Positions 17,939-42,943 of a DNA stretch of 48,846 nt are shown here, one piece after another; the stretch's first letter is position 1; each line of letters starts with the position of its first letter. Position numbers and translations under genes: made by a program. The stretch comes from a virus. The notes under the pieces were generated by a model. It did not search any database. It was not told the DNA's origin and was given only the letters and a program-made list of their open reading frames with translations. The stretch spans positions 1 through 48,846 of IMG/VR virus record IMGVR_UViG_3300027857_000347; one strand, written 5' to 3'.

Positions 17939-18041
17939 TGGCAGAGATGGAGAGAATCGAACTCCCGTCATCGGTTTTCCTAAAAACTCTCTTTAGGAAA
18001 GTGCTTAGGAGACCGGGGTAATACCATTATACGACATCTCT
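17939..18041 (-). tRNA. tRNA-Arg(CCU)-like with 29-nt hairpin insertion in anticodon loop
   Basis: Acceptor AGAGATG/CATCTCT, D-arm, T-arm with TTCGATT, G73 and encoded CCA are all normal. The anticodon arm pairs (CCGGT with ACCGA, one mismatch) only if about 29 nt after CTCCTAA are removed. That insert is a perfect 9-bp hairpin with a 7-nt loop and can be placed at the 37/38 position. It is far too short for a group I intron. Confidence 0.75.
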
Positions 18042-23490: not shown

Positions 23491-23590
23491 TGGTGCCTCA
23501 GAATGGATTCGAACCATCGTCTTCCACGTTTCCGGGTGGACGCTCTACCGACGTGGATTTATTTTGCGCACCACTCTAAGCTACTTCGGC
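23491..23590 (-). tRNA. atypical tRNA-like gene with 22-nt D-loop insertion
   Basis: Acceptor GCCGAAG/CTGAGGC (two mismatches), normal T-arm (TTCGAAT), A73, CCA. The D-stem GCTT/GAGC encloses an extra hairpin (GTGG/CCAC). The anticodon arm has an 8-nt loop CCGGAAAC with no U33, so no amino acid is assigned. Confidence 0.6.
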
Positions 23591-23762: not shown

Positions 23763-23856
23763 TGGCGCCTCGGGTTGGATTCGAACCAACGACGCGGTGC
23801 TGTTGGGCACCCGCTCTACCGGCGCTGGGTTTTGACCAGCTCTGAGCTACCTCGGC
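23763..23856 (-). tRNA. atypical tRNA-like gene with D-loop hairpin insertion
   Basis: D-stem GCTC/GAGC encloses an extra hairpin GCTGG/CCAGC at the same position as in the 23491 gene. The following arm GGTGC/GCACC has a 6-nt loop CCAACA without U33. The acceptor GCCGAGG/CCGAGGC has the same two central mismatches. T-arm and CCA are normal. Confidence 0.6.
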
Positions 23857-26195: not shown

Positions 26196-26271
26196 TGGTG
26201 CCGCCTCTCGGTTACGCTCCGAGCTATCGGGCTCTTCAGGCCCACGCTTTCACTAGATTAGCTTAAGCGGC
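26196..26271 (-). tRNA. tRNA-Phe(GAA)
   Basis: Loop CTGAAGA on stem GGGC/GCCC, CCA encoded. The T-loop is AGCGTAA (A54, T58) and the D-loop lacks a clear GG. Confidence 0.85.
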
Positions 26272-40382: not shown

Positions 40383-40460
40383 TGGCGTCTCCGGTGGGCT
40401 TCGAACCCACTCTTAACGATTTTAGAGGTCGCTGCGTTTACCTGACTTCGCCTCGGAGAC
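40383..40460 (-). tRNA. tRNA with CUA anticodon (amber suppressor type), copy 1
   Basis: 78 nt: acceptor GTCTCCG/CGGAGAC, D-arm GCG/CGC with GG, anticodon stem GCGAC/ATCGT (one C-A mismatch), loop CTCTAAA with U33, CUA and A37, T-arm GTGGG-TTCGAAG-CCCAC, G73, CCA encoded. CUA pairs with UAG. It is the last gene of the operon containing two TAG-interrupted genes. The amino acid is not determinable here. Confidence 0.85.
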
Positions 40461-40474
40461 TCTCAATCATTTTA

Positions 40475-40969
40475 TCACGATGCTGCTACAACGTACACAG
40501 GTTTATGCTGTAGTCGAAGATCGCGCTGTCGGCCAGCTTCAACCTTTGAATCTCCTCTCTCAGCGAGAAGATCAGTTGCTCCCTGCTTAGCCATCTTGAG
40601 AGATGATCGAGCAGTCTCCATCTCACCGTGCACCGGACGCAGTGCCTTATATCGACTCATCTCTTCATCAGATGCTAGAATCGGCCAGAATCTTTCACCT
40701 TTGGATTCAATCGAGAACTTACGGTGCGCTAGCTTAAAGGCCTCCTTAGCTTGTCTAATATTGAGAATTTGAGCGGCGTAGCGCGCCTTCCAATCTTCTC
40801 GATATGTCGCGTATTCATCCCGAGTCGTAAATGCAAATTTCACATCAGCATCTTCGCAATAGTGATAAGATATCTGCATTAAGGATGGTGCTTCATAGCT
40901 GCACACCTTGCACCGATAAATTTTCTTCTCCTGCACTGGGCTGCGCTTGAACATTGAGAATGGCCACAT
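40475..40969 (-). CDS. Cys/His zinc-finger-like protein, 164 aa
   Basis: AAGGAG lies 8 nt before ATG 40969. YRCKVCSYEAPSLMQISYHYC looks like a C2H2/C2HC finger (residues 18-38). The rest is a charged coiled coil. It overlaps the HD-domain gene by 77 nt, far more than other junctions in this genome, so the upstream gene may have lost an earlier stop. No family recognised. Confidence 0.7.
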   Translation of the reverse strand: MWPFSMFKRSPVQEKKIYRCKVCSYEAPSLMQISYHYCEDADVKFAFTTRDEYATYREDWKARYAAQILNIRQAKEAFKLAHRKFSIESKGERFWPILASDEEMSRYKALRPVHGEMETARSSLKMAKQGATDLLAERGDSKVEAGRQRDLRLQHKPVYVVAAS

Positions 40970-41549
40970 TGTTGTTCTCCTTATGGTTTAGTAGCTTCTT
41001 TCCAGCTTGAATTAATCTGGATCTTTTAATCTTGTAACTTTCCGACTGTCTTCCGCCAAACATCTCCGCGTTCGCGTTTATCTCAGCCCACGCCGTGAAG
41101 TAAAGAATTGGCGCGAACGGGCTTCGACAGGTTCTAATCAGGTCATCACCGCGCAGGATGTGAAAGTTCATGTCCATGGCGATAAGCTGCTTCGTAAACC
41201 CATCTTCAGGAAAGATGGTCGCATACTGCTTGGCTGAAATTTCCGCGTGGTTGGGAAATTGTCGCTTACCGGTGCACCCATCGATAATCTCGCAGAGATG
41301 TTTTCCGCAGTCATGGTATGTATGATAGCGCTCTAGCACTTCGGGTGCGGGAAGCTTATCCCTATACCGAGCATAAACGTCGCGAAGTTCTTTGTACTGA
41401 GTATCATTCGCGTTGAGCGCTGCGATGAGCTGTGCGTATTGAGAATGAACCATCTCTCCGTGCTGCAACATGTTAAGATTCGGAGCCTGAAAACAAGCTT
41501 GCATCTGTTCGCGAAGGTGATCGAGAGTTATTGACCGGTTCTACGTCAT
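40893..41549 (-). CDS. HD-domain protein with in-frame TAG at codon 3
   Basis: AGGAGAAACACC precedes ATG 41549, which overlaps the upstream TGA as ATGA, like most junctions here. The frame reads ATG ACG TAG AAC CGG, then NRSITLDHLREQM and on without interruption to 40893 (219 codons). The domain has YHTYHDCGKHLC, FPNHAEIS and IAMDMNFHILRGDDL, an HD metal-site pattern of phosphohydrolases. An internal ATG at 41504 exists but has no ribosome-binding site and would delete a helix. I infer amber read-through, possible because the operon encodes a CUA tRNA. Confidence 0.8.
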
Positions 41550-42109
41550 GGTGTTTCTCCTAGAATGTTGATACGATAATTTTCGAGCCAATCTATCGCG
41601 GCTGCCTGCTCAGTCGTCCAGCGGTTGATGTGCGCACGGTGCCAATCTTCGGTTACCTTTATCGGGTTATTTCTCAGATGCGCGACAACGTCTTTAGCGG
41701 TAGTTCTGGTATCGGTGAACGCGTGAATAATTTTGGACGCGCTGTGCTTTCCAAGACCGGGCATGGTGTCGATTCCGATTAACTGTTCAGCGTGACACTT
41801 TGGACACGCGCAGGCAGAACACGTGCAGTCACCGCCATGCACACCTTCGGAAAGCTCGCTAAGATACCAACCGTAAAGTTCGTCAACTCGCGCATCGATA
41901 GGTGTCTTTCCACCTGCATCTTCAGAATAATATTTGGGATCCAGCTCCGACTTAGCAGAGTCAATATCACCATCGCTCAATCGAAAATACGCCATGAAAA
42001 GCCGTTCCTTTAGCTCCTCTACCTTTACCTTGTACCACAGTTCCTTCTTTTCGACTTCGTTAAGCTCAATAGTTGTCGCGAGTGGGTTTTGGGTATAATT
42101 TATTTTCAC
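41546..42109 (-). CDS. Cys-cluster protein, 187 aa, unknown
   Basis: A GTG start at 42109 is preferred: GGAG lies 9 nt upstream and GTGA overlaps the preceding stop. Centre: GDCTCSACACPKCHAEQLIG, two CxxC pairs forming a zinc finger, then a helical part (HSASKIIHAFTDTRTTAKDVVAHLRNN). It lies between the two TAG-interrupted genes and has no internal stop itself. Unknown function. Confidence 0.72.
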   Translation of the reverse strand: MKINYTQNPLATTIELNEVEKKELWYKVKVEELKERLFMAYFRLSDGDIDSAKSELDPKYYSEDAGGKTPIDARVDELYGWYLSELSEGVHGGDCTCSACACPKCHAEQLIGIDTMPGLGKHSASKIIHAFTDTRTTAKDVVAHLRNNPIKVTEDWHRAHINRWTTEQAAAIDWLENYRINILGETP

Positions 42110-42444
42110 GCGTGTGCTCTCCATAGTTGTAAATCAGATAGATGGTGGCGCTGATCCTCGGTAAGAAGACAGGCAAGCGCGGTCATTCCCCATTCCTGGT
42201 ATGGTTCATGAAACTCGGTGGTCGAAATACCTTCAGACGCGAGGCGTGATTTAAGCTCCTCGAGGTGAGGCTTATCACGGATGGTTAGATGAATGTAGGA
42301 GGGGTGATGATCGAGTGGGCGCCCATGCTCGTAAGCATATTCAATGCCAGCATGTGCCGCTTGTACGGCCTGCTGCGCGAGAGGGATGTCGCGACGAGAA
42401 ACGGCGTACAGATACGTCTTGTGGGAAGAAACCTAGGCGTTCAT
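42106..42444 (-). CDS. peptidyl-tRNA hydrolase 2-like protein with in-frame TAG at codon 4
   Basis: GGAG lies 6 nt before ATG 42444. The frame reads ATG AAC GCC TAG GTT, then continues 109 codons: KTYLYAVSRRDIPLAQQAVQAAHAG, PSYIHLTIRDKPHLEELKSR, MTALACLLTEDQRHHL. This fits a short Pth2-like family (basic first strand, Q..HA helix) that releases peptides from peptidyl-tRNA or cleaves related esters. No ATG, GTG or TTG occurs between the TAG and the last third, so the TAG must be read through. Alternatively it is a nonsense mutant. Confidence 0.8.
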
Positions 42445-42548
42445 GATAATCTCCAGTTCGTTGAGCCAATTCACGGAAGGTTGGCTGATGACCTTATTCT
42501 GTAACCCCGTGCAGCTGCACCAGTCAAGGTGCGATCTACTTCATAATG
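42445..42548 (-). promoter_or_regulatory. 104-nt leader of the amber-interrupted operon
   Basis: On the minus strand it holds CACC/GGTG and a 12-bp palindrome GTGCAGCTGCAC (near 42510), between the promoters and the Pth2-like start. Possible leader control; no ORF. Confidence 0.4.
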
Positions 42549-42556
42549 TATTTATA
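42549..42556 (-). promoter_or_regulatory. late promoter box TATAAATA
   Basis: Perfect box overlapping the -10 of the promoter at 42554, for the Pth2-like/HD operon. Confidence 0.65.
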
Positions 42557-42582
42557 CTATCACGCTATTTCAAGAAAGTAAA
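42554..42582 (-). promoter_or_regulatory. sigma70-like promoter TTTACT-17-TAGTAT
   Basis: Minus strand; transcribes the operon 42444-40383. Confidence 0.6.
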
Positions 42583-42584
42583 CA

Positions 42585-42851
42585 TCAACCTGACAAATGT
42601 GGGAAAGAAGATTTCATGAATGAGAAAACGGTGGCGGTGTCAAGGATGTTGTAGTCAACCAGCCATCCCCTCGTCGAATACTTTGAAACGATCTCATCGC
42701 ATAGATTAACGGGAAGTCGCCGATCGTGATAGGTGCTGTTTATCAGTGGTCGGTGAGCGAGATGATGATCTATGTCGGCTCGGAGAGCTCGTAGACCGTA
42801 TTCCGAATCAACCCTATCCTCGTAATCGCGGCGCTTTACATGTGCTGCCAT
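42585..42851 (-). CDS. hypothetical protein, 88 aa
   Basis: GGGGAG lies 7 nt before ATG 42851. Basic and His/Arg-rich (HLAHRPLINSTYHDRRLP). It follows the second CUA tRNA on the same transcript. No family recognised. Confidence 0.7.
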   Translation of the reverse strand: MAAHVKRRDYEDRVDSEYGLRALRADIDHHLAHRPLINSTYHDRRLPVNLCDEIVSKYSTRGWLVDYNILDTATVFSFMKSSFPHLSG

Positions 42852-42869
42852 GTTCACTCCCCAATGTTG

Positions 42870-42943
42870 TGGATCGCCCGATGGGAATCGAACCCACGTA
42901 CCGGAATTTAGAGTTCCTCGCTAAACCACTCAGCTACGGGCGA
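42870..42943 (-). tRNA. tRNA with CUA anticodon (amber suppressor type), copy 2
   Basis: 74 nt, near-perfect cloverleaf: acceptor TCGCCCG/CGGGCGA, D-arm GCTGAGTGGTTTAGC, anticodon stem GGAA/TTCC, loop CTCTAAA (U33, CUA, A37), T-arm TTCGATT, U73, CCA encoded. It begins about 17 nt after a late box, making it the first element of that transcript. Confidence 0.9.

Follow-up and report, generated by a model that had tools for sequence, protein, structure and literature searches.

A candidate stop-codon gate in Pth2-like and HD-domain genes of phages encoding suppressor tRNAs

The virus record IMGVR_UViG_3300027857_000347, analysed over its whole stretch of 48.8 kb (the window), contains on its minus strand two genes in which a TAG codon lies in frame shortly after the start codon. 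One of them codes for a Pth2-like protein and the other for an HD-domain protein, with the Shine-Dalgarno sites GGAG and AGGAG in front of the Pth2-like and the HD gene, respectively (Table 1). Past the TAG of the Pth2-like frame, the first in-frame ATG, GTG or TTG is located at about codon 83. The gene pair is flanked by two transfer RNAs (tRNAs) located by ARAGORN and Rfam, for which the anticodon CUA was called by ARAGORN; the first is separated from the Pth2 ATG by 425 bases. The motif TATAAATA, which we take to be a T4-type late promoter box, is present upstream of the two genes and was counted six times on the minus strand of the window and once on the plus strand. The initial annotation had described the two early stops with their Shine-Dalgarno sites and subsequent open frames, and likewise the flanking tRNAs, the 425-base spacing and the late-type box, and these readings were confirmed. 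A near-identical locus was identified on a 368-kb contig, designated G001.

Table 1. Features of the locus in the window
Feature	Position	Strand	Remarks
Pth2-like gene	42106..42444	-	ATG AAC GCC TAG, then 108-codon open frame; ATG at 42444-42442, open down to 42106
Candidate gate codon TAG, codon 4 of Pth2-like gene	42433..42435	-	next base G
HD-domain gene	40893..41549	-	ATG ACG TAG (41549-41541), then 215-codon open frame until 40893
Candidate gate codon TAG, codon 3 of HD gene	41541..41543	-	next base A
CUA tRNA, upstream	42870..42943	-	loop CTCTAAA, CCA encoded; ARAGORN and Rfam
CUA tRNA, distal (second)	40383..40460	-	loop CTCTAAA, body differs from the first; ARAGORN and Rfam
TATAAATA, presumed T4-type late box upstream of the gated genes	42549..42556	-	motif count
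Open reading frame of 192 amino acids between the gated genes	41546..42124	-	its end overlaps the HD start (ATGA)
Open reading frame of 164 amino acids, HD gene to distal tRNA	40475..40969	-	weak zinc-finger-like match, under the cut-off

For the Pth2-like protein, an AlphaFold model with a predicted local distance difference test (pLDDT) score of 92.5 was obtained, and the best matches to it in the PDB by Foldseek were the Bit1/Pth2 structures 1q7s, 3erj and 2zv3 (for 1q7s, probability 1.00 and E 2.3e-5). The family PF01981 was matched by 12 of the 17 members of set A2 (E up to 0.1; best 1.7e-6). These fold and profile matches predict that the gated Pth2-like product is a peptidyl-tRNA hydrolase of the Pth2 fold. 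The HD gene matched the profile PHROG 14850 with an E of 7.9e-52. Its model (pLDDT 87.3) resembled most closely the tRNA-processing enzyme 3wfo (probability 1.00, E 0.029, template modelling score 0.56), which likewise ranked first among the profile matches (E 0.0017), while the Pfam HD domain was recognised in 1 of 12 HD members (E 0.016). The residues H30, H79-D80, H101 and D126 are invariant and presumably constitute the HD metal motif. The product is thus a putative HD phosphohydrolase which appears to resemble the HD domain of tRNA 3'-end enzymes. By their fold and profile matches both gated products point to the tRNA 3' end, the HD protein less firmly.

A Pth2 profile search identified 66 loci in viral contigs, 61 of which remained as non-redundant after the removal of 5 near-duplicates. 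Loci were assigned to the gated class when the interval from the stop to the conserved Pth2 core was free of ATG, GTG and TTG, by which 36 were TAG-gated, 1 was TGA-gated and none was TAA-gated, with an ordinary start in 22 and 2 unclear cases; L224, which has an ATG directly past the TAG, was scored as ungated in this count. Among the 13 Pth2-like loci found first, which include that of G001 and two near-duplicate pairs, in 12 the frame was interrupted by a stop one to four codons past the start (11 TAG, 1 TGA). The contexts before the stop vary among these 12 loci (MNA*, MK*, MQL*, MHKL*, MKL*, M*, MKK*, MCS*, V* and MES*, with the asterisk denoting the stop), and the thirteenth locus (L013) codes for an HD-Pth2 fusion with a TAG at the fusion's own start. 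The HD gene begins with ATG ACG TAG or ATG TCG TAG in all four loci compared, G001 among them. Since the stop is conserved in relatives while the flanking sequence changes, the early TAG cannot be attributed to chance.

The position of the stop was determined for 41 gated Pth2 genes, comprising 36 of the gated loci and 5 genes from named phages. It was found at codons 2 to 4 in 35 of the 41, and at codon 9 at the latest. A purine after the stop codon promotes readthrough. Here, the base after the gate was A in 28 genes, G in 12, C in 1 and T in none, a purine bias (40/41) which does not represent 41 independent events because the sequences are related. A U at this +4 position has been described to lower readthrough, as given in part of PMC5289835.

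The gate was also identified in cultured phages. Five of them (Serratia BF, Cronobacter GAP32, Pectobacterium CBB, Xanthomonas XbC2 and Erwinia Kaldavass) combine a TAG early in Pth2 with another at HD codon 47, and in each a CUA tRNA follows HD downstream at a distance of 2 to 3 kb; in the annotations of these phages HD is broken into separate open reading frames, and Pth2 of BF is unannotated. Acinetobacter ME3 contains the gate in Pth2 alone, and Pth2 of Salmonella Arash starts with ML-TAG. XacN1 and RAS14 code for an HD-Pth2 fusion with one gate at the start MK-TAG, and Tenacibaculum pT24 for the reverse Pth2-HD fusion, again with a single gate and the start MK-TAG. A CUA tRNA is present in all ten of these phages. 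In uncultured huge phages, Pth2 is gated in LR756511, LR756500, LR756501 and LR756504 and HD in LR745206, and a CUA tRNA was found in LR756511, LR756500 and LR756501.

The specificity of the gate was analysed by comparing G001 with a second contig, G002, both of about 360 kb. In 322 homologous open reading frames searched for a Shine-Dalgarno start just before a stop, the gate was common to both genomes in just two, Pth2 and HD, in a scan that gated genes can escape if they lack a homologue in the other genome or contain a start codon shortly behind the stop. The claim of the initial annotation that only these two genes are gated holds for this comparison. In an all-frame scan of the 61 loci for early-stop frames of at least 85 codons, 35 TAG, 7 TGA and 2 TAA cases were identified. 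Judged by eye, Pth2 or HD accounted for 27 of the TAG (L224 included) and 1 of the TGA cases, and the other 8 TAG, 6 TGA and 2 TAA look like background. When conserved internal stops were searched for, antisense shadow frames dominated the output, and the mid-gene TAG of HD in GAP32 and BF was the one clean TAG case among the matches listed. By the scans and the conservation of the stop, a pseudogene or a sequencing error was ruled out. A pyrrolysine system was rejected as well, as PylS was identified in none of six genomes searched (with a search control that exceeded the cut-off in 1 of 14) and the tRNA bodies are diverse.

At L179:9445-10071, a 205-codon open reading frame that was not recognised as Pth2 or HD starts with ATG CAA TAG behind a Shine-Dalgarno site.

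A CUA tRNA was located for 32 of the 36 TAG-gated loci, in 28 of them by ARAGORN at the locus and in 4 by the covariance model R1 elsewhere on the contig, the latter being entered by hand into the 61-locus count. The covariance model recovered the CUA tRNAs of G005, G006 and G012, which had been missed by ARAGORN, and revealed further ones in G013 and G014, in parts of these contigs not scanned before. The anticodon loop CTCTAAA is shared by 62 of 79 distinct CUA tRNAs; bodies and acceptor stems are diverse and, by eye, do not indicate a single amino acid. Within the 5' half of the CUA tRNA of G012 (L281:1501-1628), about 50 additional bases are inserted, which could represent an intron or an expansion. 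In the window, four tRNA-like stretches were scored by Rfam and left unreported by ARAGORN (17942-18041, 23494-23590, 23766-23856 and 26199-26271).

The 342-kb contig G011 has TGA in place of TAG in both genes (MES-TGA in Pth2 and MTWS-TGA in HD), and on it ARAGORN identified two tRNAs with the anticodon UCA and none with CUA. In K64-1, Pth2 starts at its own ATG with a TAG four codons upstream of it, and no suppressor tRNA was found by ARAGORN in the whole genome. For Hallingskeid and Aeromonas CC2, both ungated, no suppressor tRNA was identified in the parts and matches inspected. These comparisons support that the type of stop is matched to the suppressor tRNA of the phage, in Pth2 and HD only, where scanned.

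On the strength of these sequence comparisons, the Pth2 and HD genes very probably carry a programmed stop-codon gate which is opened by the suppressor tRNA of the phage. Ribosomes would initiate at the normal start and meet the UAG, mostly at codons 2 to 4 and up to codon 9, where translation would stop unless the UAG is read by the phage's own CUA suppressor tRNA; in the lineage of G011, a UGA gate would be read by UCA tRNAs. Readthrough would be required for the Pth2 and HD proteins to be made.

Several observations weigh against this reading. Four of the 36 TAG-gated loci, the contigs of which measure 8 to 84 kb, yielded no CUA tRNA; among these contigs, G017 (46 kb) gave no covariance-model match, and G016 (84 kb) contains two weak UCA candidates instead. 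For LR745206 and LR756504 no CUA tRNA was found in the pieces inspected, the switch to TGA and UCA is known from the single lineage G011, and in ME3 and Arash HD is present without a gate. Concerning the identity of the products, the Pth2-like copy of the window itself has no match to PF01981, and the fold search with the HD model gave nothing at an E of 0.001, with 3wfo at 0.029.

The main result against a simple model comes from a distant group of phages. In 18 of the 22 loci with an ordinary start, a CUA tRNA likewise lies downstream of the Pth2-like gene on the same strand, at a distance of 60 bases or less in 10 of them (one overlapping by 9) and of 105 to 3833 bases in the others. The CUA tRNA is therefore not solely present for opening this gate, and the ungated genes show that it has a further role. 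L210 and L230 of this group (L207-L235) each contain one in-frame TAG in the middle of the Pth2-like gene. No HD match was found in 20 contigs of the group, which comprise 18 of the 22 ungated loci and 2 gated ones, in a search without a positive control.

With regard to the purpose of the gate, an autogenous sensor of stop suppression is tentatively preferred. The Pth2 and HD proteins would be made in proportion to stop suppression and might then act on the peptidyl-tRNA or tRNA ends resulting from it, thereby limiting the suppressor or cleaning up after it. A transfer-messenger RNA (tmRNA) was identified by ARAGORN in G001 (90242-90646), G002, G011, XacN1, L003, L005, L010 and L012, a few kb from the gated gene in the last four, and its presence is consistent with a relevance of ribosome rescue. 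A jumbo-phage PTH2 was proposed, in a part of PMC7824862, to free peptidyl-tRNA in ribosome rescue, and the Pth2 of RaK2 is described in a section of PMC3622015.

The initial annotation had proposed a timing switch with positive feedback, in which proteins needed late are delayed until the suppressor tRNA has accumulated, the feedback being ascribed to a tRNA gene on the same transcript. This possibility, which appears doubtful, shares the stop gate with the sensor and differs from it in purpose alone. It is in agreement with the TATAAATA box, which is visible upstream of Pth2 in L002, L004 and L007 as in the window, and with the short distance of less than 4 kb between tRNA and gate in 27 of the 28 gated loci with an ARAGORN-found tRNA; furthermore, for recoded phages a switch depending on the suppressor concentration has been suggested in part of PMC10879173. 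However, a late promoter would by itself delay expression, and the tRNA is distant from the gated gene in some phages, being located in the terminal repeats more than 100 kb away in XacN1 and about 40 kb away in G013 and G014. The gate of the annotated model was found to be conserved, matched to the suppressor and confined to Pth2 and HD in the genome comparison, whereas the position of its tRNA is not conserved. A timer also leaves unexplained why gating is confined to tRNA-end enzymes. The sensor is favoured over it because both products resemble such enzymes, because of the fusions and because Pth2 is linked to the CUA tRNA even in ungated phages.

A leader minigene from ATG to TAG, with the protein starting downstream by reinitiation or at a non-standard start, is improbable. 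Candidate starts are given by an ATG at codon 16 of the HD frame in the window and by the ATG right behind the TAG in L224. In the mycobacteriophages BadAgartude, Myrna, ScoobyDoobyDoo and I3 (L245, L249, L250 and L251), ATG or GTG, TAG and GTG precede a peptidyl-tRNA hydrolase gene which has a CUA tRNA just downstream; since the spacing between the Shine-Dalgarno site and the GTG behind the TAG is favourable, this gate was set aside as ambiguous. However, the gated loci by definition lack any such codon between the stop and the Pth2 core, and any stop codon would serve a leader, yet TAG was found 36 times, TGA once (with UCA tRNAs) and TAA never.

Still less probable is a genome-wide recoding of TAG (code 15), with Pth2 and HD as two among many recoded genes. 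CUA tRNAs mark code-15 phages, the gene of LR756501 has a second TAG, and in a coverage test at 66 loci, reading TAG as sense increased the open reading frame coverage at many of them, as in L184 (from 0.68 with the standard code to 0.83, and to 0.73 with TGA as sense). The test is not decisive, because TGA as sense gains about as much at most loci, and for G001 and G002 a genome-wide recoding was rejected on the 2 gated genes in 322. Code 15 may apply to individual lineages, for instance L184 or LR756501. A readthrough by depletion of release factor 1 (RF1) without a phage tRNA is equally improbable: UAG is recognised by RF1 only and the purine after the stop favours readthrough, but the change to TGA with UCA tRNAs in G011 and the ordinary start in K64-1, where no suppressor was found, argue against it.

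Outside the Pth2/HD module, a phage gene for an RF1-like release factor was identified (L033:9958-10620 in G001; L329-L408), the product of which contains PCRF and RF-1 domains in the read-through translation and also in the part after the stop; among the NCBIfam models, release factor 1 matched best, with a score below the cut-off. In G001, codon 36 of this gene is an in-frame TGA. Among the best 80 of 359 loci, the same TGA with an unchanged frame was found in 79, the remaining locus being cut by the contig end, and in these 79 assessable loci it is preceded by a glycine codon in 78 and by a serine codon in 1. Readthrough or bypass of the UGA seems to be needed for the protein. This lends support to a broader concept in which termination genes of phages are regulated through in-frame stops. 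It is conceivable, if rather speculative, that the system works like a thermostat, in which the suppressor opens the gates of Pth2 and HD to the extent that UAG is read through, the proteins strip, repair or recycle the resulting tRNAs and peptidyl-tRNAs, and the control of termination genes by in-frame stops is perhaps a general phage strategy.

Several phage genome reports describe suppressor tRNAs in standard-code phages without a target, and the gate would provide a concrete one in XacN1 and several other cultured phages. It would also explain genes that were split or missed by annotation in BF, GAP32, CBB, XbC2 and Kaldavass, and would represent an expression switch of natural origin that is gated by a tRNA and contains its own codon/anticodon test. 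A search of open-licence PubMed Central revealed, among the matches listed, no description of a gate opened by a tRNA in this way. In the available parts of the respective reports, the authors of XacN1 considered readthrough of 18 amber stops without identifying a target of the suppressor tRNA (PMC5852040), the purpose of the suppressor tRNA of Summit is given as unknown (PMC9022506), and no target is named for the suppressor tRNA of RsoM2USA (PMC8504454) or the UCA suppressor of Atu_ph07 (PMC6102473). Atu_ph07 was also sought as a blind test and was absent from the Pth2 and HD searches among the matches listed. A jumbo-phage survey of 2026, in the portion available, links suppressor tRNAs solely to genome-wide recoding (PMC13037316). 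The jumbo-phage PTH2 of PMC7824862 belongs to the same protein family as the gated Pth2-like gene, and the words suppressor, stop codon and in-frame are absent from the main text of that paper.

Compared to known systems, the proposed gate shares features with recoded phages and with bacterial prfB. Stop-codon recoding in phages with suppressor tRNAs was reportedly described by Borges in 2022. In recoded (code 15) phages, as presented in parts of the sources, a phage suppressor tRNA reads UAG or UGA codons lying in frame, in a host that uses the standard code (Kienbeck 2024, PMC10879173; Peters 2022), and expression may depend on the tRNA level (Kienbeck 2024). There, however, many genes carry stops at ordinary positions, whereas in the phages described here a single stop, in most cases right at the start, is present in one or two tRNA-enzyme genes. 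Bacterial prfB likewise has an early in-frame stop (UGA) in a translation gene, with expression tied to stop decoding, and the proposed gate resembles this UGA, which senses RF2 activity. In prfB the stop is passed by +1 frameshifting, while in the phage genes the frame is unchanged and a cognate phage suppressor tRNA would read the stop.

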